Assembly (NCBI RefSeq): GCF_003725735.1
Contig: NZ_RJTM01000029.1
Span: forward strand, 124,001-188,000
Source of the DNA: Sinomicrobium pectinilyticum
GTDB taxonomy: Bacteria > Bacteroidota > Bacteroidia > Flavobacteriales > Flavobacteriaceae
DNA length: 64,000 nucleotides
Direction: 5' to 3'
Shown: positions 14,610-53,715 of the stretch, in pieces
How positions within the stretch are numbered: position 1 is the first letter of the stretch
How the letters are laid out: each line of letters starts with the position of its first letter
Notes under the pieces: generated by a model
What the model saw: only the letters and a program-made list of their open reading frames with translations
What the model was told of the DNA's origin: nothing
Databases searched by the model: none
Position numbers and translations under genes: made by a program

Positions 14610-15917
14610 TTATATTCCCCAGGGGTAGGTTTCGGGCATTTGTAAGCTATCGGGTTCGATAAGTAAGGGGTGGAGGGCTTCCGTCTTGTCAAGATGAATA
14701 AACGCCTCGTAGCGTTCCGGAATGATACTCGGCACATAATTTCCGTATTCGTAATCCGGATCATATACCACACCAATGGCGCGGTGACCGACTGGTGATA
14801 CCAGGTGCTTAAGATCCCTTGAAAAAAGGAGTTTATCATGGGCCCCTGCCCCGTGTAACAGGTGTTCCCAGCTGCCTTGCCTTGCCCTGGGCATGCGCAT
14901 TCTTTTCATGGGGGCTCCCCAGTTACGGCCCGCCATTACATTTCCTTCATAAGAGCCGAAACCTATCCGGTATACCCCTTCTTTATGATGTTCTTCCTTT
15001 AGTAACTGGCCTATGTTGATAAGTCCTGTTTGCTTCATATCCGTTGCCCTGGCATCACCAATATGCGTATTGTGTTCCCAGATGATTATTTTAGCATCCG
15101 GGCCATGAAATTTCATCAACCTGTTTACGGTGTCAAACATGTGACGGTCACGGATGTTCCATGTGAATTCGCCTCCCTTGAGCATGGTTTGGTAATACTT
15201 TTCTGCGTTCACGGCTACAAGGGCGTTTTGTTCTGCACTGAAAGCCCCTTCGGGGTCCTTGTCAAACCAGGGCATACGGTTCCTGATATTAACCAGAAGA
15301 TCTTCGACTTCCTTTTCACAGGAAGAAGGAATGCCATAACTCCTCTCGGCATAAGAAAATCCTTCTTTTACGTTAAAAGGTTCGAAACAGTCCATTGCTT
15401 CCTGTACGACTTGAAGTGCCCCGGGATCTTTTTCCTCCAGGTATGCAAAAATCGCATCCATTGATTCCCATAGGCTGTAAACGTCCAGGCCATAAAATCC
15501 TATCTTGCCGGAAGACCGTCCGGAGTTGTACTCGCGCAGCCATTCTGCCAGTGCCACAATTTCCCAGTTTGCCCACATCCAGGTAGGCCAGCGGTTAAAT
15601 GCTTTGAGTATATCTTTGGCGCTTTCGCCTGAATTTTCATAGCCTTTGATATAACGGTTCAGGCGATAGCAATCAGGCCAATCGCCTTCAACGGCGATCA
15701 TCGAAAAATTTTTTTCCCTGATCAGCCGCTTACTGATATGCATTCGCCAGGTATAATATTCGTGTGTACCATGACTTGCCTCGCCCAATAAAACGAATCT
15801 TGCCTCGCCGATTTCGCTTAAGAGCACATCGAGATCGGTATCTGTCTCCAGCGGATGGGAGACCTCTTTTATCAGTTGTTCAATATCGGTATGTATATGT
15901 TTTGTAACCTGATCCAT
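14610..15917 (-). CDS. erythromycin esterase family protein
   Basis: The ATG at 15917 (MDQVTKHIHTD, 435 residues) is preferred over an upstream one at 15965 because it has the purine-rich ACAGGAAA in front and avoids overlap with the upstream gene. Family marks: LGEASHGTHEYYTWR near the N-terminus, IAVEGDWPDCYRLNRYI, IIIWEHNTHIGDA and GVVYDPDYEYGNYVP. These hold the His/Glu pairs that in EreA/EreB-type enzymes coordinate catalysis. Chromosomal members next to a phosphoribosyltransferase are common, and most do not act on macrolides; their substrate is unknown. The gene follows the phosphoribosyltransferase directly (25 bases). Confidence 0.88.
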   Translation of the reverse strand: MDQVTKHIHTDIEQLIKEVSHPLETDTDLDVLLSEIGEARFVLLGEASHGTHEYYTWRMHISKRLIREKNFSMIAVEGDWPDCYRLNRYIKGYENSGESAKDILKAFNRWPTWMWANWEIVALAEWLREYNSGRSSGKIGFYGLDVYSLWESMDAIFAYLEEKDPGALQVVQEAMDCFEPFNVKEGFSYAERSYGIPSSCEKEVEDLLVNIRNRMPWFDKDPEGAFSAEQNALVAVNAEKYYQTMLKGGEFTWNIRDRHMFDTVNRLMKFHGPDAKIIIWEHNTHIGDARATDMKQTGLINIGQLLKEEHHKEGVYRIGFGSYEGNVMAGRNWGAPMKRMRMPRARQGSWEHLLHGAGAHDKLLFSRDLKHLVSPVGHRAIGVVYDPDYEYGNYVPSIIPERYEAFIHLDKTEALHPLLIEPDSLQMPETYPWGI

Positions 15918-15942
15918 TTTCCTGTTTTTTGAGTAGATATTC

Positions 15943-16563
15943 CTAAAAACGGTTAGTATTCGCAAGCAATAGCTTTACTTCTTCATCGCTTACCTGGGTA
16001 AAATCGGTATAATGCAGACCTACGCCGAGAAAAGACGCGGGGGTAAACAGACAGATAAAATCATCTGCCTGTTGCCTGATTTTTTCAGCAGTTTCACGAG
16101 GAGCAACGGGGAGGGCTACTACAATTTTTTTTGGTTTTTTCCTCCTGAGCATTTTAATGGCGGATATAATGGTATTACCGGTGGCCGCACCATCGTCAAC
16201 AATAATCACGGTCTTGTTTTCTACGGAAGAGGGGGGATGGCCACCTGTGAAAGTCTTGTATCGCTCCCTTAATGATTGACGGATACTTTTTACCTGGCTG
16301 TCAATATAAGATTGTGGCATGTAATGTTCATCGATAATATGATCTTCCGGGGTCACAGCCCCTATGGCAAATTCGGGATGAGCGGGATGACCGATTTTTT
16401 TTGCCATAAGCAGATCAAGTGGCAGATTGTAAGTTTTGGCAATTGGACTGGCAACGGGAACTCCGCCACGGGGAATAGCCATGACCACGCTCTCTTCTTT
16501 CCCGTATTTCTTCAGAAGCGGGACCAGTTTGTGCGCTGCATCATTCCTGTTTTTAAAAACCAT
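15943..16563 (-). CDS. phosphoribosyltransferase-family protein
   Basis: A 206-residue type I phosphoribosyltransferase. The PRPP-binding loop VIIVDDGAATGNT is at ~119-131. The N-terminal AIPRGGVPVASPIA and LLMAKKIGHPAHPEFAIGAV segments match a subfamily often found next to or fused with hydrolases and erythromycin-esterase genes. The base or acceptor it uses is not known; classical purine or pyrimidine salvage specificity motifs are not recognised. It lies immediately upstream of the erythromycin-esterase gene on the same strand, with a 25-base gap, and is probably co-transcribed. Confidence 0.88.
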   Translation of the reverse strand: MVFKNRNDAAHKLVPLLKKYGKEESVVMAIPRGGVPVASPIAKTYNLPLDLLMAKKIGHPAHPEFAIGAVTPEDHIIDEHYMPQSYIDSQVKSIRQSLRERYKTFTGGHPPSSVENKTVIIVDDGAATGNTIISAIKMLRRKKPKKIVVALPVAPRETAEKIRQQADDFICLFTPASFLGVGLHYTDFTQVSDEEVKLLLANTNRF

Positions 16564-46718: not shown

Positions 46719-47261
46719 CTATCTTTCGCTGATCGGTACCTTAACCCGTGTAGTATCCCATCCCATATACATGTCGGCTCCGTTATCTCCGGGTTCGAAA
46801 GTAATGGAGAAAGCTTCCAGGGATTGACTGTCCTTCTCGACAGGGACCGTTGTCCTGGCTACATCGTTGGCTTCTTTATAATCGAAAGCGCCCCATACGT
46901 CCGTATCACTGTTCAGGATTACCACCCATTCTTTTACCCCGGGAATGGTGAACAGGGTATAAGTACCAGCTTCAACCTCCTTATCTCCGAACATTACGTC
47001 TTTGAAAAAGGTGATCTCTGTTGCCTCATTGGCCCCGGTACGCCACACTTTGTCAAAAGGTACGAGTGTCCCGAAAACCGGCCTGTCTTTTTTCTGGGGC
47101 CTTCCGTAAACCACCTTTGCGACAGGGGCTGCCTTGCGGTCTGTACGGTAATATGCGATATCGCACGGACTTTTATCCAGTCCGCTGAATTTCTGTGCAT
47201 TAGTTTCTGGGGCGAAGGTCAGTGCCACAACAAGTGCCAGTAAGCTGATATATCTCTTCAT
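46719..47261 (-). CDS. DUF2911 family secreted protein
   Basis: A 180-residue protein with a Sec signal peptide (about 1-22). DUF2911 marks are VVYGRPQKKDRPVFGTLVPF, WRTGANEATEITFFKDV, EVEAGTYTLFTIPG and VILNSDTDVWGAF. The fold is a beta-sandwich; function is unknown, although the family is widespread in Bacteroidota periplasms. It stands alone, with a shared terminator against the AraC-type gene. Confidence 0.9.
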   Translation of the reverse strand: MKRYISLLALVVALTFAPETNAQKFSGLDKSPCDIAYYRTDRKAAPVAKVVYGRPQKKDRPVFGTLVPFDKVWRTGANEATEITFFKDVMFGDKEVEAGTYTLFTIPGVKEWVVILNSDTDVWGAFDYKEANDVARTTVPVEKDSQSLEAFSITFEPGDNGADMYMGWDTTRVKVPISER

Positions 47262-47377
47262 AACAGGAAAATTGTATTTTTTGGATTGTTATGGTCTAAA
47301 TTAACAAATCTTTTTTAATCCCGCTCTGATGATCAGGAAACTTTGGGATATTTTTATAAGTTGTAGGAAAGCACCTC

Positions 47378-48547
47378 TTAAGATGATAATGCCTGGTCCA
47401 GGTCTGCAATAACATCCGCTACGTTTTCCAGTCCTACCGAAACTCTTACGAGCCCGTCCGTTATACTTACCTGCAAGCGATCTTCTTCACTGAGTTTGCT
47501 GTGTGTGGTGGATGCCGGGTGGGTTACTATGGTACGGGTATCTCCCAGGTTGGCGGATAGCGAGCACATTTTTATGGAATTCAGGAATTTACGGCCCGCT
47601 TCCACACCGCCTTTAACCTCAAAGGCCACAATGCTTCCACCGGCTTTCATCTGCTTTTTGGCTATTTCATATTGGGGATGGGACCTGAGAAAAGGATATT
47701 TCACCCAGTTTACCCGGGGATGATTTTCCAGGAATTCCGCTACCTTAAGTGCATTTTCACAATGCCTGTCCACACGTACGGCCAGGGTTTCGAGGCTTTT
47801 GGATAGTATCCAGGCGTTAAAAGGCGACAGGGATGGCCCCGTATTGCGGGAAAAGAGATAAATCTCCCGGATAAGATCTTTTTTACCCACGGTAATACCT
47901 CCCAGTACACGGCCCTGTCCGTCTATGAGTTTGGTAGCGGAATGAATAACCAGGTCCGCCCCGAATGCTATGGGGTTCTGGAGATACGGAGTAGCAAAGC
48001 AGTTGTCTATGACCAGGATAAGGTTGTGTTTTTTTGCTATTTCACCCAATAGTTCCAGGTCCAGGATGTCTACTGCCGGATTCGTCGGGGTCTCTGCGAA
48101 GAGTATTTTAGTATCCGGTTGTATGAGCGATTCTATCTTTTCCGTTTCGTCTACCCTGAAATAGGAAGTATTGATGTTCCACTTCGGTAAAAACTTGGTG
48201 AACAGGGTATGGGTGGACCCGAAGACCGACCGTGCAGCGACAATATGGTCACCGCTGTTCAGCAGGGCGGCAAAGGTAGAGAATACGGCCGCCATCCCGG
48301 TAGCGAAGGCATAACCGCTTTCCGCTCCTTCCATTTTACATATTTTATCTACGAATTCGGAGGTATTGGGATTGGTAAATCTGCTGTAAATGTTTCTTTC
48401 TTTTTCTTCTGCAAAAGAAGCCCTCATATCTTCCGCATCTTCAAAAACAAAACTGGAAGTAAGATATAACGGGCTGGTGTGTTCCAGGAATTCTGTTTTT
48501 TCTATACGGGTTCGTACGGCATCGGTTTCAAAGTGGGATTTGCTCAT
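47378..48547 (-). CDS. metZ: trans-sulfuration PLP enzyme, probable O-succinyl/O-acetylhomoserine sulfhydrylase
   Basis: The start is set at ATG 48547 (MSKSHFETDAVRTR), 389 residues. Cys/Met-metabolism PLP enzyme marks: TSPLYLTSSFVFEDAED, GMAAVFSTFAALLNSGD, VFGSTHTLFTKFLPKW, FAETPTNPAVDILDLE, VIDNCFATPYLQNP and the PLP Lys in HSATKLIDGQGRVLGG. The absence of features typical for cystathionine gamma-lyase and the partnership with metX suggest direct sulfhydrylation to homocysteine. It lies 40 bases downstream of the PLP decarboxylase in the SAM-riboswitch operon. Cystathionine synthase activity cannot be excluded by sequence. Confidence 0.88.
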   Translation of the reverse strand: MSKSHFETDAVRTRIEKTEFLEHTSPLYLTSSFVFEDAEDMRASFAEEKERNIYSRFTNPNTSEFVDKICKMEGAESGYAFATGMAAVFSTFAALLNSGDHIVAARSVFGSTHTLFTKFLPKWNINTSYFRVDETEKIESLIQPDTKILFAETPTNPAVDILDLELLGEIAKKHNLILVIDNCFATPYLQNPIAFGADLVIHSATKLIDGQGRVLGGITVGKKDLIREIYLFSRNTGPSLSPFNAWILSKSLETLAVRVDRHCENALKVAEFLENHPRVNWVKYPFLRSHPQYEIAKKQMKAGGSIVAFEVKGGVEAGRKFLNSIKMCSLSANLGDTRTIVTHPASTTHSKLSEEDRLQVSITDGLVRVSVGLENVADVIADLDQALSS

Positions 48548-48587
48548 TATCTCGTGTTTTATTTTTTTATCTGTTAGGAATGTGTTT

Positions 48588-49994
48588 TTATAAAATTTCT
48601 TCGGCAATACGGTCCATTTGTTCCGTAATTATGGTCACATCTTCTTTACTGGTCATCCAGTTTACAAAAGCTGCCCGGATACCTTTTTTACCCTGATATA
48701 CCGTTGGGGTCATAAAGACTTTTCCGCTGCGGTTGAGAGCAGTGAGGAAAGGCCGGACGTTCTCCTGGTTTTCTTCTCCGCTCAGCGTAAAACATACGGT
48801 GTTAAGCCGCACGGGGGCCAGCAGGTCAAATTTAGGGTTTTGTACTATAAAATCGCCCATCAGGAGTGTCATTTCAACGGAATTTTCCACGATATGCCTG
48901 TAACCTTTTTTACCGTAGGCCATTAATGTAAACCAGACGGGAAGAGCCCTGAGCCTCCTGGAATTTTCCGGCAGAAAATTGAGGTAGCTGAAATTCTCCA
49001 TGGGATCTCCGAGGTAAGGGGCATTGGAATTCTGAAAGGTCTCTGCCTGTAACAGGTTATGCTCCTTACGTACGAGGAAAAATGCATTTTCGTAAGGTAC
49101 GTTCAGCCATTTGTGACAGTCTATGGTAATACTGTCGGCGTCTTCCCAGCCTTTCAGCAGGTGTTCGTATTCAGGAGAACAGGCGGCAAAACCACCGAAA
49201 GCAGCGTCGATATGCCACCAGAAGTTATGCTTCTTCCGCAGTTTCCCGATCGCTTCGAAATTATCGAAATCGACGGTATTTACCGTTCCTGCACTGGATA
49301 TTAATATAAAAGGAGCGCCTTCCAGTTCCAGTATCCTCTTCTCCAGGTCATCCGGGTCTATGGCTTCCCTGTTTCCCCCGAGCGTGTCTACTTTCAGTAT
49401 ATTCCTGCTTCCCAGTCCCAGCATGGCCAGTGATTTTACGGAAGACGAATGGGGAGTGGCCGTTAGTACATGTACCTTGTCCCGGATGCCGTCCCTGGCA
49501 TAGTCTTTCCCCAGCTGTCTGCCATACCATTGCCTAGCTACGGCAAGGCAGGTGAAATTGGACATGGTGGCCCCCGTAACAAAACCACCGAAAAAGTCGG
49601 AGGGCAGGTCAAAGAGGGCCAGCAATAGTTTCACGGCCTCTTGCTCTATGACAGCCGAAATATCGCCTTCTCCTTTGACTGCCTGGGTGTTCTGGTCATA
49701 TATAGTTGCCAGCCAGTCCCCTGCTATGGATGCCGGTGTGGAACCGCCGGTAACAAACCCCAGATACCTGGGGCCGGAAGAGGCGACGATGAGAGGCTCT
49801 AACCGGCTGTTAAATTGTTCCAGAGCCTTTGCAGCGCCAAGTCCTTCTTCACTCAGTCCGGGGATATCATCAACTTCAAAAGTTGTGGATACCGGTCTGT
49901 TATGCAGGTCGCCCAGATAATTCCCGGCCTGTTCCTTTACCTGCTCCAGTAAGGAGTCCAGTTCGCCGAAGTCCGTATGTAAATGCTGGTACAT
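48588..49994 (-). CDS. PLP-dependent decarboxylase (group II) of unknown substrate
   Basis: A 468-residue enzyme of the group II decarboxylase/aspartate aminotransferase fold. Marks: GFVTGGSTPASIAGDWLA, FVTGATMSNFTCLAVAR, TATPHSSSVKSLAMLGLG, WWHIDAAFGGFAACS and the PLP Lys in SITIDCHKWLNVPYENAF. Relatives decarboxylate aspartate, glutamate, tyrosine, tryptophan or diaminobutyrate; no residue set fixes the choice here. The gene sits between the metX-thrA fusion (31 bases) and metZ (40 bases) and would share their SAM riboswitch. That is an unusual position, and a role in aspartate- or sulfur-amino-acid metabolism is inferred only from it. Confidence 0.88.
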   Translation of the reverse strand: MYQHLHTDFGELDSLLEQVKEQAGNYLGDLHNRPVSTTFEVDDIPGLSEEGLGAAKALEQFNSRLEPLIVASSGPRYLGFVTGGSTPASIAGDWLATIYDQNTQAVKGEGDISAVIEQEAVKLLLALFDLPSDFFGGFVTGATMSNFTCLAVARQWYGRQLGKDYARDGIRDKVHVLTATPHSSSVKSLAMLGLGSRNILKVDTLGGNREAIDPDDLEKRILELEGAPFILISSAGTVNTVDFDNFEAIGKLRKKHNFWWHIDAAFGGFAACSPEYEHLLKGWEDADSITIDCHKWLNVPYENAFFLVRKEHNLLQAETFQNSNAPYLGDPMENFSYLNFLPENSRRLRALPVWFTLMAYGKKGYRHIVENSVEMTLLMGDFIVQNPKFDLLAPVRLNTVCFTLSGEENQENVRPFLTALNRSGKVFMTPTVYQGKKGIRAAFVNWMTSKEDVTIITEQMDRIAEEIL

Positions 49995-50025
49995 GAGCTC
50001 AATGTATTATGTTATTGCTATTGTA

Positions 50026-53000
50026 TTATTCTCCACGGTCCGCCAGCCGTAATATATCTCCGAACACGCCCCGGGCCGTTACATTAGCTCCTGCACCGGC
50101 TCCCTGAATGACGAGTGGCCTTGTTCCATAAGACTCGGTGTATATTTCGAATATGGAATCGGAACCTTTGACCTGGCCGAGCGCACTTTGCTCGGGAACG
50201 GAAACGAGTTTCACCTCCAGGATGCCCTTGTCCTGCTGCAGGTCGCCCGAGAGTTCCCCGATATACCGCAGTACATGACCTGGTTCCTGCCTGGTCTTTA
50301 TCTCCGTGTACGTGTTGTCGAGTTCTTTCAGACGGGAGAGAAAATCCGCAGCTTTTCCTTCGCGAAAACCTGAAGTTTCGGGGATGAGGTTCTGTATCCT
50401 GATGTCTTCAAATTCGTTACGGAGATCCAGTTCCCTGGCAAGGATAAGGAGTTTTCTCCCCACATCGTTACCCGAGAGGTCTTCCCTGGGGTCCGGTTCG
50501 GTAAACCCTTTGTCTATGGCTTCCTGCAATACTTCACTGAAAGGCCTGTCTTCCACGGAAAAAGTATTGAAAAGGTAACTCAGTGACCCGGAGAATACGC
50601 CTTTGATCCCGGTAATGTTCTCCCCGGAAAGGTGTAGCAGTTTTATAGTGTCTATAAGAGGTAAGCCGGCGCCTACATTGGTTTCGTAAAGATATTGTTT
50701 CTGGTTTTTGTCAAGGGTTTTCCTTAATTCTTTATAGAAACCGTAGCTAAGCGTATTAGCGATCTTGTTGGACGAAACTATGTCAAAACCGTTGTTGATC
50801 AGTTCGATATAATTTTCCACGAAATCCGCACTGGCCGTATTATCTATAGCAATAAGGTTTTCCAGGTGATGTGTTTTGGCATAGGAAATAACCGCATCTG
50901 CCCCGGGGGATTGATCGCTGTTACCGATAGCTTCCCTCCAGTTGTCCCCGATACCATTTTTATCCAGGAGTACTTTCCTTGAGTTGCCCACGGCAAAAAT
51001 ATTCAGGCGTATATTCTTGCGCTTTTCAATACTGCCGGCCGATGATAGTATTTGTTCGATAAGTGTTCCTCCTACCAGTCCGTGACCGAATATGGCGATA
51101 TTGATCTTTTTGGAAATACCGAATATTTCCCCGTGTATAACATTAAGTGCTTTGTGCAGTGCAGATTTTTTTACGACCAGGCTGACGTTCTTTCCGGTGA
51201 CGGTATTGTTGAACAGCAGGGGAACGACCTGGTTTCTTATCAACGCGTTATAGGGCTTGTGAAACGTACTGAGGTCCTGCCCGACAATGGAAATAACCGA
51301 TACGTCATCTACTGCGGATATCTTGTTAACGTCTTTGGAGTAAAAGTCTTTTTCAAACTCCTTTTCCAGCTCCACGATGGCTCTTGTAGCGTTTTCCGCA
51401 TCTACTACAAGTCCGATTCCCCTTTCCGAAGACCCTTGTGAAATAATACTCACACTGATATTGCTGTCACCGAGTGCCCGGAAGATCCGTGCATCGACTC
51501 CCGCTTTTCCGAGCAGTCCCCGCCCTTCCAGGTTAAGTAAGGCCACATTTTCCAGTACGGACAGTGATTTGATACCTTCTTTATTGGGTTCGGAAGTAAT
51601 GAGGGTTCCTTTGTTATCGTTGTTAAAGGTATTGAGTATACGCAGCGGAATGTTCTTTTCTATCAACGGGATAATGGTTTTGGCATGCAGGATAGTAGCC
51701 CCGAAATTAGCCATTTCATTCGCTTCGTTATAAGATAGCTGTTCTATGCGCTGTGCATCGGGCACCAGCTCCGGATTGGCGGTGAATATACCGTCTACAT
51801 GTGTATAGCTTTGCAGTTCCTCCGCATCCAGGAAGTTGGCTATAAGAGAGGCCGTATAGTTACTGCCGTTCCTACCCAGGGTAGTGGTCTCGTTTTTGGT
51901 GTTGGAACCTATAAACCCTGTTACGATATTTACCGTGTTGTGATTGTGTTTTTCGAAATGCCCGAGGACATTCTCCTTGGAAAGTTTTTCCAGGGGCTGT
52001 GCATTTCCGAATTTCTCATCCGTTTTGATGAGTTTCCGCGTATCGGTAAATACGGCATTGATACCTTTGTATTTTAATACTTCCGTGATGAGTTTGGCTG
52101 AAATAACTTCTCCTTTTGAAAGTATCTGGTCTTTGATTTTGGAACTGTAATCTCCCAGCAGGTTTACTCCTTCAAACAATTTTTCGAGCTTGGTGAATTC
52201 ATCGGAAAAATCCACATAATCAAAACCGGCCTGCTGGTAGGTCCTAAACTCCTCTAACTGCTTTGTGAAATTTTCCCCTTTTGCGGCTTTCTCGAGTATC
52301 TCTTCCAGTTCGTTAGTCGCATTGCCCCTTGCGGAGACTACCACGGTTATCCTTTCTCCCTGTTCTATTTTATCTTCGATAATACGCAACGCATTGGTAA
52401 TACCTTCTCCGTTAGCCAGTGATTTACCACCAAACTTCAATACTTTCATCCTGTTGTTTTTTCCTTTTTGAAATATTCCTCCTATGAGTTTTTCCAGTTG
52501 TTCGAATTCTATTAAAAAAGCATCGTGCCCGTGTACGGAATGTATTTCGCCGTAAGTTACCCTGTCATGGGCCTGTGCCAGTTGCTTATGTGTTTCCCTG
52601 TTTTCTTCGGCGGTGAAGAAAAGGTCGGAATCCACTCCTATGATATGGATATTGGCATTTATGGATTCCAGTACGTTAAAATGCTCTTTGTGCCCCCTGG
52701 TCACATCTATGGTTTTCAGCAATTGGTTCATCAGCTTATATGCGGCAAGCTGAAAGCGCTCCTGCAATTTATTGCCGTGATGCAACAACCAGCTTTCTAC
52801 ATTGAAAACCTTGAGTTCCTGGTTGGTGGTCCGGTTGAAACGGGTTTTGAAAGATTCCGGTGTGCGGTAGCACAGCATGGCGTGCATACGCGCATCGTGG
52901 ACGGGCTGGCGGGAATTCACGAGGAATTGTTCCTGTACCTGGCAATTGGCAATAAGCCAGTCCGTTGATTTCCAGTCCGAAGCAATGGGAATGAGATGCT

Positions 53001-53430
53001 CGGTGATATCGGGATCGAGCACTGCCATTTCCCAGGCAATACCGCCGCCCATTGAGCCCCCTATGAGCGCAAAAAGTTTTCCGACACCCAGTTTTTCCAG
53101 GCCGGTCAAAAATATCCTTGCCATGTCACGAGCTACAAAATCCTTGTAGTTGTCTATGACAAATCCGTCATAACCGTTCCCCGGCACGTTAAAGGCCAGG
53201 ATAGTGTAGATGGAAGTATCTATGCCCTTACCCTCCCCGATAAGGTCTTTCCACCAGCCCGTTTCTCCGGCAACATCCGAATTCCCGGTAAGGGCATGGT
53301 TGACCAGTATCACCGGAGCTTCTCCCAGCGTTTTTCCGAAAACCTGGTAAGATAGCGGGATACGTGGAATCTGCACACCGATCTCTGTGACAAAACCTGT
53401 AATTTCAAGCTGATTTAAATTGCTTTTCAA
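50026..53430 (-). CDS. trifunctional MetX - aspartate kinase - homoserine dehydrogenase fusion
   Basis: The protein has 1134 residues in three domains. Residues ~1-326 are a homoserine O-acetyltransferase-type alpha/beta hydrolase (catalytic Ser in LIGGSMGGGIAW, Asp in IIGVDSDLFF, His in SVHGHDAFLIEF). Residues 328-~765 form an aspartate kinase with VLKFGGKSLANGEG at the start, TTLGRNGSNYTASL, and ACT domains. Residues ~773-1134 are homoserine dehydrogenase (NIAIFGHGLVGGT). It thus supplies aspartyl phosphate, homoserine and an activated homoserine in one chain, missing only aspartate-semialdehyde dehydrogenase. A SAM riboswitch lies in its leader. Similar fusions are known in flavobacteria. 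Confidence 0.95.
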   Translation of the reverse strand: MKSNLNQLEITGFVTEIGVQIPRIPLSYQVFGKTLGEAPVILVNHALTGNSDVAGETGWWKDLIGEGKGIDTSIYTILAFNVPGNGYDGFVIDNYKDFVARDMARIFLTGLEKLGVGKLFALIGGSMGGGIAWEMAVLDPDITEHLIPIASDWKSTDWLIANCQVQEQFLVNSRQPVHDARMHAMLCYRTPESFKTRFNRTTNQELKVFNVESWLLHHGNKLQERFQLAAYKLMNQLLKTIDVTRGHKEHFNVLESINANIHIIGVDSDLFFTAEENRETHKQLAQAHDRVTYGEIHSVHGHDAFLIEFEQLEKLIGGIFQKGKNNRMKVLKFGGKSLANGEGITNALRIIEDKIEQGERITVVVSARGNATNELEEILEKAAKGENFTKQLEEFRTYQQAGFDYVDFSDEFTKLEKLFEGVNLLGDYSSKIKDQILSKGEVISAKLITEVLKYKGINAVFTDTRKLIKTDEKFGNAQPLEKLSKENVLGHFEKHNHNTVNIVTGFIGSNTKNETTTLGRNGSNYTASLIANFLDAEELQSYTHVDGIFTANPELVPDAQRIEQLSYNEANEMANFGATILHAKTIIPLIEKNIPLRILNTFNNDNKGTLITSEPNKEGIKSLSVLENVALLNLEGRGLLGKAGVDARIFRALGDSNISVSIISQGSSERGIGLVVDAENATRAIVELEKEFEKDFYSKDVNKISAVDDVSVISIVGQDLSTFHKPYNALIRNQVVPLLFNNTVTGKNVSLVVKKSALHKALNVIHGEIFGISKKINIAIFGHGLVGGTLIEQILSSAGSIEKRKNIRLNIFAVGNSRKVLLDKNGIGDNWREAIGNSDQSPGADAVISYAKTHHLENLIAIDNTASADFVENYIELINNGFDIVSSNKIANTLSYGFYKELRKTLDKNQKQYLYETNVGAGLPLIDTIKLLHLSGENITGIKGVFSGSLSYLFNTFSVEDRPFSEVLQEAIDKGFTEPDPREDLSGNDVGRKLLILARELDLRNEFEDIRIQNLIPETSGFREGKAADFLSRLKELDNTYTEIKTRQEPGHVLRYIGELSGDLQQDKGILEVKLVSVPEQSALGQVKGSDSIFEIYTESYGTRPLVIQGAGAGANVTARGVFGDILRLADRGE

Positions 53431-53521
53431 TGTAACCGTTTTTTGTTTGTATGCGATATGTTACCAGAAAAGCTATTACGGAAAGTAATTACCCTTTAGA
53501 CCGTGTCATGTGGTACACGGG

Positions 53522-53622
53522 GTTATCTTTCCCCGTATCCGGGGTAGAACGTAGCACCTTCTCCATGAGGGAGGGTTGCTAAGGCTTCACCGGGTCTATT
53601 CCCTCAGCCTTTCTTGATAACA
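53522..53622 (-). promoter_or_regulatory. SAM-I (S-box) riboswitch of the met operon
   Basis: On the minus strand the S-box core is seen in order. P1 is GTTATC/GATAAC at the ends (53622-53617 and 53527-53522). GTTATCAAGAAAGGCTGAGG begins the aptamer, P2 is AGGCT/AGCCT, and its kink-turn/pseudoknot region contains GACCCGGTGAAGCC. Then come the GCAACC strand, P3 (TCC...GGA), GGTGCTA and P4 CCCCG-GATA-CGGGG. A further hairpin CCGTGT/ACACGG (53501-53520) follows without a U-run, so control is more likely at translation or via an unclear terminator. The start codon of the fusion gene is 92 bases downstream. High SAM should lower expression. Confidence 0.9.
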
Positions 53623-53684
53623 TCTTAATTATTTTTCTGAACTTGTGTTTCCTCCCGTTATAAAAGAACGGGCGGAACAAGGCG

Positions 53685-53715
53685 CAAAGTAATGGAATAA
53701 TAATGAAACAGGCAA
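53685..53715 (-). promoter_or_regulatory. possible promoter of the SAM-riboswitch operon
   Basis: On the minus strand TTG (53715-53713), a 21-base spacer and TACTTTG (53691-53685) are close to the consensus but the -7 box lacks one T. It lies about 60 bases upstream of the aptamer. Confidence 0.4.

Follow-up and report, generated by a model that had tools for sequence, protein, structure and literature searches.

The group II PLP-dependent decarboxylase (DEC) that lies within a SAM-I methionine operon of Sinomicrobium pectinilyticum is predicted, with a probability that we put at about 50%, to decarboxylate a small polar amino acid and to be made along with methionine enzymes at low SAM. DEC lies beside methionine genes in several bacterial groups and in differing gene orders, which suggests that methionine metabolism has a partner not recognised before. 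The window, by which we mean the whole stretch of 64,000 nucleotides that was analysed, carries the following features.

53520 to 53623, minus strand: SAM-I riboswitch aptamer (S box leader); RF00162, 82 bits, E 8.7e-18, full model 1-108
50026 to 53430, minus strand: MetX-aspartokinase-homoserine dehydrogenase fusion; open reading frame of 1134 aa with a TTG start
49995 to 50025, minus strand: gap of 31 bases between the fusion and DEC; sequence, no terminator-like site in the scan
48588 to 49994, minus strand: group II PLP-dependent decarboxylase (DEC), 468 aa; PF00282, 152.4 bits
48548 to 48587, minus strand: gap of 40 bases between DEC and metZ; sequence, no terminator-like site in the scan
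47378 to 48547, minus strand: metZ-like O-acyl-homoserine sulfhydrylase; ATG start; PF01053, 447.7 bits

An earlier note on this DNA had described the order of aptamer, fusion, DEC and metZ on the minus strand, gaps of 31 and 40 bases, and the absence of a terminator between the three genes. The order was borne out by the RF00162 match, the open reading frames and Pfam, and the sequence agrees with both gap lengths if metZ is taken from the ATG at 48547; its mechanical open reading frame is 47378-48607, beginning at a TTG that overlaps DEC. A terminator scan of the minus strand from 47250 to 53700 likewise upheld the third statement, its sole site lying inside metZ, and it found no terminator-like site 3' of the aptamer. 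The aptamer is full length and exceeds the RF00162 gathering score of 44.4 bits. By Pfam and NCBIfam the fusion contains AA_kinase, Homoserine_dh and ACT domains together with an alpha/beta-hydrolase N-terminus, which resembles MetX models with scores below their cut-offs, and its TTG start is conserved with its context in loci L090, L091 and L092. The metZ-like protein scores 518.5 bits against PRK08133 (O-succinylhomoserine sulfhydrylase), for which the cut-off is 522. We infer that a single transcript runs from the SAM-I leader through the fusion, DEC and metZ.

DEC belongs to the group II PLP decarboxylases, its PF00282 score standing against a gathering cut-off of 27 bits, and it looks like an intact enzyme. 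The PLP lysine K295 (in an HKW motif), H182, D263 and the catalytic-loop Y327 are invariant in all 27 aligned orthologue rows; the roles of such residues as Schiff-base lysine, PLP-stacking histidine, aspartate for the pyridine nitrogen and loop tyrosine follow the account of AtSerDC in the available part of PMC11407765. The same part of that paper describes a C-terminal zinc finger of three Cys and one His in plant serine decarboxylase, and a finger of this type is absent from DEC, whose 468-aa translation, read by eye, has no Cys past C401. Solved decarboxylases align over almost the full length of the AlphaFold2 model of DEC (pLDDT 87.6), and Pseudomonas DOPA decarboxylase 7xin superimposes on it in VIA-align with Z 44.9 and rmsd 2.8 over 447 residues at 22% identity. 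With the exception of one entry titled EctB, the Foldseek and VIA-align rows listed are group II decarboxylases and aldehyde-synthase relatives. None of the NCBIfam equivalog cut-offs is reached by DEC: the best match, to the PanP aspartate 1-decarboxylase model TIGR03799, gives 103.4 bits (cut-off 606.1), L-2,4-diaminobutyrate decarboxylase NF052646 gives 95.8 bits (cut-off 900), and glutamate decarboxylase TIGR01788 gives 43.1 bits (cut-off 380.4). Homology therefore assigns DEC no substrate. A defence system was also considered and set aside, DEC having no PADLOC match.

The earlier note had staked its reading on finding DEC at this position in close relatives; within the genus it occupies that position in three of the other five genomes and is absent from it in two. 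An orthologue is thus present in 4/6 genomes, always between the fusion and metZ. The fusion occurs in all six, and SAM-I was found at the corresponding place in the other five, or 6/6 with the window. Since the two genomes lacking DEC pass directly from the fusion to metZ and retain SAM-I, these gene orders make DEC an optional part of an operon that is itself stable. There is nothing unusual about the fusion in this family, 53 of 120 family-sample genomes having a match over nearly its whole length. In locus L091 an extra gene lies between DEC and metZ and carries the stretch HPFREGNGR, which we take to be a Fic-like motif. As a control, 14 paralogous decarboxylase loci from the same six genomes were inspected, a small set viewed over only about 1.5 kb per side, and none (0/14) was near the fusion, metZ, metH or metF. 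The recurrence in three of five relatives and this control together speak for a placement beyond chance.

Beyond the genus, DEC is found with other methionine genes, and its neighbours there seem other than random. In Pedobacter/Sphingobacteriaceae, metH/metF share a same-strand run with DEC in 15 of 18 loci (the exceptions being L006, L015 and L043), in 14 loci metF is the gene immediately 5' of DEC, 14-175 bases away, and SAM-I lies upstream of metH in all nine loci searched. Among the named Flavobacterium loci metF is in the run with DEC in 8/10, as it is in 15/18 genomes of genus g127, which is taken as Flavobacterium, with gaps of up to 400. These runs also hold a methyltransferase and in most cases a symporter, and other genes separate metF from DEC. 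SAM-I is upstream of metH in L097 and L123, and lies at fitting coordinates and on the fitting strand in seven further genomes whose contig identity was inferred; none was present within the fetched stretch of L114, and none was seen in L026, a locus that begins inside metH. In L025, L097, L114 and L123 the interval between metF and the methyltransferase gene contains a Flavo-1 RNA. The tie is thus looser in Flavobacterium, where the gaps are also longer, and because of this RNA after metF and the genes between metF and DEC, a shared transcript is less sure there. A further order, SAM-I, DEC, metY, metX, is represented by one genome (L108). The methionine settings comprise four gene orders with SAM-I ahead of each. 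The window genome has a second SAM-I site, which heads metH-metF without DEC, so which of the two SAM-I operons holds DEC depends on the lineage. That DEC is found with SAM-I in several lineages, among differing partner genes, makes it likely that high SAM represses it and that it is linked to methionine metabolism.

The methionine tie proposed by the earlier note finds support in this co-location, but the tie is not upheld as a specific one. At E 1e-60 an orthologue was found in only 7 of 299 family genomes, besides missing from two of the six genomes of the genus, and of the 12 genera for which regions were fetched, nine have DEC away from methionine operons. By genus, three of these 12 have a methionine setting, compared with none of the 14 paralogue loci of the control, and two have a trp/his setting. 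Among 89 distinct rows, whose counts reflect how heavily Pedobacter and Flavobacterium were sampled, 42 settings were methionine, three trp/his, two serine dehydratase and 42 other. Before this count we dropped repeat copies of loci (L001, L063-L070, L082-L087), identical proteins (such as L100 and L102) and cut or broken DEC frames of 380 aa or less (L052, L054, L057, L061, L123, L124); L131-L133, the outgroup, were added later, and L130 and L134 were left out. L041 and L127 have DEC within their trp operon, and the trp/his run of L107 has the order hisH, DEC, a weakly matched GNAT gene, hisA. PhzF-family genes are near DEC in L018, L027, L038, L040, L060 and L106, and in Deinococcus it adjoins an ornithine-cyclodeaminase-family gene and PhzF. 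No methionine genes accompany DEC in any of the 13 Chryseobacterium/Elizabethkingia loci. With trp and trp/his operons, serine dehydratase neighbours and solitary positions among its settings, DEC is not a methionine-only enzyme.

Such scattered settings bring up the possibility that DEC is a passenger, a mobile accessory gene that captured promoters by settling in conserved, well-expressed amino-acid operons without any tie to methionine. Its occurrence in trp and trp/his operons, beside serine dehydratase and alone would suit this explanation, as would its patchiness (10 of 171 genera of the phylum sample; by genome, 22/395 in the phylum sample and 34/395 in the order sample at E 1e-110), the relatives on replicons labelled plasmids and outside Bacteroidota, and, in our reading, the entry of a Fic-like gene into the same operon in L091. 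On the other hand, four methionine gene orders, each behind SAM-I, have been kept across many Pedobacter and Flavobacterium genomes, and we consider a mere passenger rather unlikely. The history of these placements was examined by counting changes between methionine and non-methionine settings, of which a quick tree of 92 rows gave five and a careful tree thinned to 44 rows, leaving out L108, L107, L050, the Snodgrassella rows and L053/L055, among others, gave three. The differing gene orders suggest repeated recruitment into methionine operons. Independent origins are not claimed, since AU tests do not reject one methionine-linked clade (p-AU 0.366 for a single clade of the 20 methionine rows and 0.381 for one of the 16 metH-metF rows).

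What DEC acts upon may be approached through its pocket, whose positions were mapped by aligning DEC to the R. gnavus tryptophan decarboxylase and the Pseudomonas DOPA decarboxylase. From the pocket positions of these relatives we assume that N102, Q104, N344 and S345 meet the substrate side chain, where DOPA decarboxylase presumably has I101, F103, L353 and G354. N102, N344 and S345 are identical in 92/92 orthologue rows, including the three outgroup rows (lineages of Deinococcus, Burkholderia and Pseudoalteromonas), whereas Q104 differs in all three outgroup rows and is retained in 87 of 89 in-group rows, the other two having a K and a gap. At N102 and N344 the three DEC paralogues encoded in the window genome have other residues. 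Because N102, N344 and S345 are polar and identical across all settings, a single polar substrate is suggested, one that would be the same in methionine, trp/his and orphan settings and would be polar rather than methionine, tryptophan or the end product of each operon.

A sulfur amino acid such as methionine, one of the substrates that the earlier note had offered, accordingly fits the four polar residues poorly. The fullest form of that idea would make DEC an L-methionine decarboxylase yielding 3-methylthiopropylamine and expressed alongside the pathway by which that substrate is made. The recurrent placement in methionine operons would favour it, and an L-methionine decarboxylase with a solved structure has reportedly been described by Okawa et al. 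in 2021; the enzyme of Streptomyces, which we take to be group II, resembles DEC in that and in a link to methionine. Yet methionine is a poor fit, since the pocket-equivalent residues are polar and nearly unchanged in trp, his and orphan settings. An OFF switch would, moreover, produce the enzyme when methionine is scarce, and no chain named methionine decarboxylase is among the PDB matches listed (the best 60 of 69). We regard methionine decarboxylation as improbable. A DMSP decarboxylation pathway, for which the available part of PMC11306096 names methylthiopropylamine as an intermediate, was considered separately and dropped, no tie to DEC being found in that material.

Aspartate was another substrate that the earlier note had offered. 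DEC could be a PanP-like aspartate 1-decarboxylase that draws on the aspartate supply of the MetX-thrA fusion to make beta-alanine, PanP being its best NCBIfam match and the pocket being polar. Against this, its 103.4 bits are far from the cut-off, so DEC is not a member of that family, and PanD was found in 24/24 genomes tested, 22 of them DEC carriers. DEC is thus not needed for beta-alanine, beta-alanine supply was dropped as a candidate need, and PanP-like activity seems very improbable. In our judgement serine, threonine or homoserine-like substrates would fit best, the exact substrate being a guess. Two kinds of neighbour, each from one genus, give weak hints at serine or threonine: a serine dehydratase just upstream of DEC in two of the three genomes of genus g2, and in L021 a symporter before DEC that is nearest SstT (106 bits, below the cut-off of 308).

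Returning to the small-polar-amino-acid decarboxylase that we favour, we propose that DEC is a working enzyme of an uncharacterised group II subfamily, transcribed from the SAM-I leader with the methionine genes. What the sequences show directly is the enzyme family, its catalytic residues, the riboswitch and the recurring place in operons. SAM-I leaders are OFF switches, and from this we infer the direction of regulation by SAM. At high SAM the leader would shut the transcript, and at low SAM the fusion, DEC and metZ would be made together; in Pedobacter, DEC would then be made with genes for homocysteine methylation instead of homocysteine synthesis. All carriers would share one substrate, a small polar L-amino acid, from which DEC would strip the carboxyl group to give a polar amine. 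We further propose that derepressed amino-acid biosynthesis goes with a demand for the enzyme or an excess of its substrate, and this would account for the placement of DEC in methionine and sometimes trp/his operons. The benefit may lie either in making the amine or in removing the amino acid.

A different possible role for DEC is damage control: it would destroy some toxic side product or polar amino-acid analogue by which the synthesis of methionine, tryptophan or histidine is blocked. This role is consistent with a pocket that is polar and almost unchanged in every setting, with the position of DEC within pathways that would be exposed to such analogues, and with the LysE-type exporter (L053, L055) and MFS transporter (Burkholderia) that adjoin it; but such transporters are beside DEC in few of the inspected loci, and we think the role quite improbable. 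A broader version, that DEC represents an unrecognised amine-forming or amino-acid-clearing branch in Bacteroidota which is tied to SAM limitation and possibly removes a harmful polar amino acid or analogue, is also unlikely. The harm would there be done to methionine, tryptophan and histidine synthesis when these pathways run at full rate, and one subfamily with a conserved polar pocket would have been placed repeatedly in derepressible amino-acid operons.

Amino-acid decarboxylases are best known for amino-acid degradation or for making signalling amines. If DEC is truly kept in SAM-I operons while the methionine genes around it change, methionine metabolism in these bacteria would have a missing side reaction; alternatively, there would be a general need for the amine that DEC makes, or for removal of the parent amino acid, during amino-acid limitation. 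No report of this operon member or of the DEC subfamily was recognised in the open-access literature searched. The available main text of PMC2258182 and PMC2211319 does not contain the word decarboxylase, and in the available part of PMC4239095 it refers only to SAM decarboxylase.

The operon described here resembles other SAM-I (S box) methionine operons in having a complete RF00162 aptamer ahead of met genes, and it differs from them in its amino-acid decarboxylase, a member reported for none of them in the open-access literature searched. The nearest named NCBIfam model, PanP (TIGR03799), has a 606.1-bit cut-off that DEC falls far below, and the DEC genomes tested already carry PanD. The other PF00282 decarboxylases, among them those acting on DOPA, tryptophan, glutamate and cysteine-sulfinate, have the same fold as DEC (Z 36-45 in the 50 rows listed) and share with it the PLP lysine, the stacking His, the Asp and the catalytic Tyr, their solved representatives being 14-26% identical to DEC in those rows.

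Directly behind the SAM-I aptamer of the window, the minus strand can form the structure CCGTGTACCACATGACACGG (53520-53501). No U run follows it, so there is no clear sign of a simple intrinsic terminator, and the switch could work through translation or in some other way. The fusion gene, encoding MetX, aspartokinase and homoserine dehydrogenase, starts at window position 53430 with a TTG codon, whose context, TTACATTGAAA, is common to three further genomes of the genus, and it is possible that this TTG is a weak start serving control. Pedobacter soli (genome G302, the source of locus L005) carries two SAM-I aptamers in tandem, spaced by 32 bases:

C7:22954-23059, SAM-I aptamer 1
C7:23092-23201, SAM-I aptamer 2

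One stop interrupts the frame of the group II PLP decarboxylase (DEC) in two genomes, G1005 of genus g127 (taken as Flavobacterium) and G967 of genus g237; a stop is likewise reported in the DEC of G868. These stops may reflect either decay or sequencing error. The single-stop frames are:

L123 7513-8922, DEC frame with one stop
L124 7551-8960, DEC frame with one stop

The operon at locus L091 (genome G301) holds an extra gene, an additional insertion between DEC and metZ:

L091 6876-7457, gene with the motif HPFREGNGR, which looks Fic-like

PDB entry 8zpi, from outside the window, is titled as an EctB transaminase, but its sequence aligns over its length with group II decarboxylases; the label may be wrong. 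The DEC at L045 627-2021 lies on a contig filed under a Thalassovita MAG and clusters in the tree with DECs of Fulvivirga, Reichenbachiella and Marinoscillum; the assignment is probably a binning error. Elsewhere in the window, a phosphoribosyltransferase-domain gene is overlapped by an erythromycin-esterase-family gene (14610-16563, minus strand).

In the Flavobacterium operon, the stretch separating metF from the methyltransferase gene contains a Flavo-1 RNA, which runs antisense to the operon genes at all four loci:

L097 8044-8119, Flavo-1 RNA
L123 6702-6779, Flavo-1 RNA
L114 11207-11282, Flavo-1 RNA
L025 3852-3929, Flavo-1 RNA
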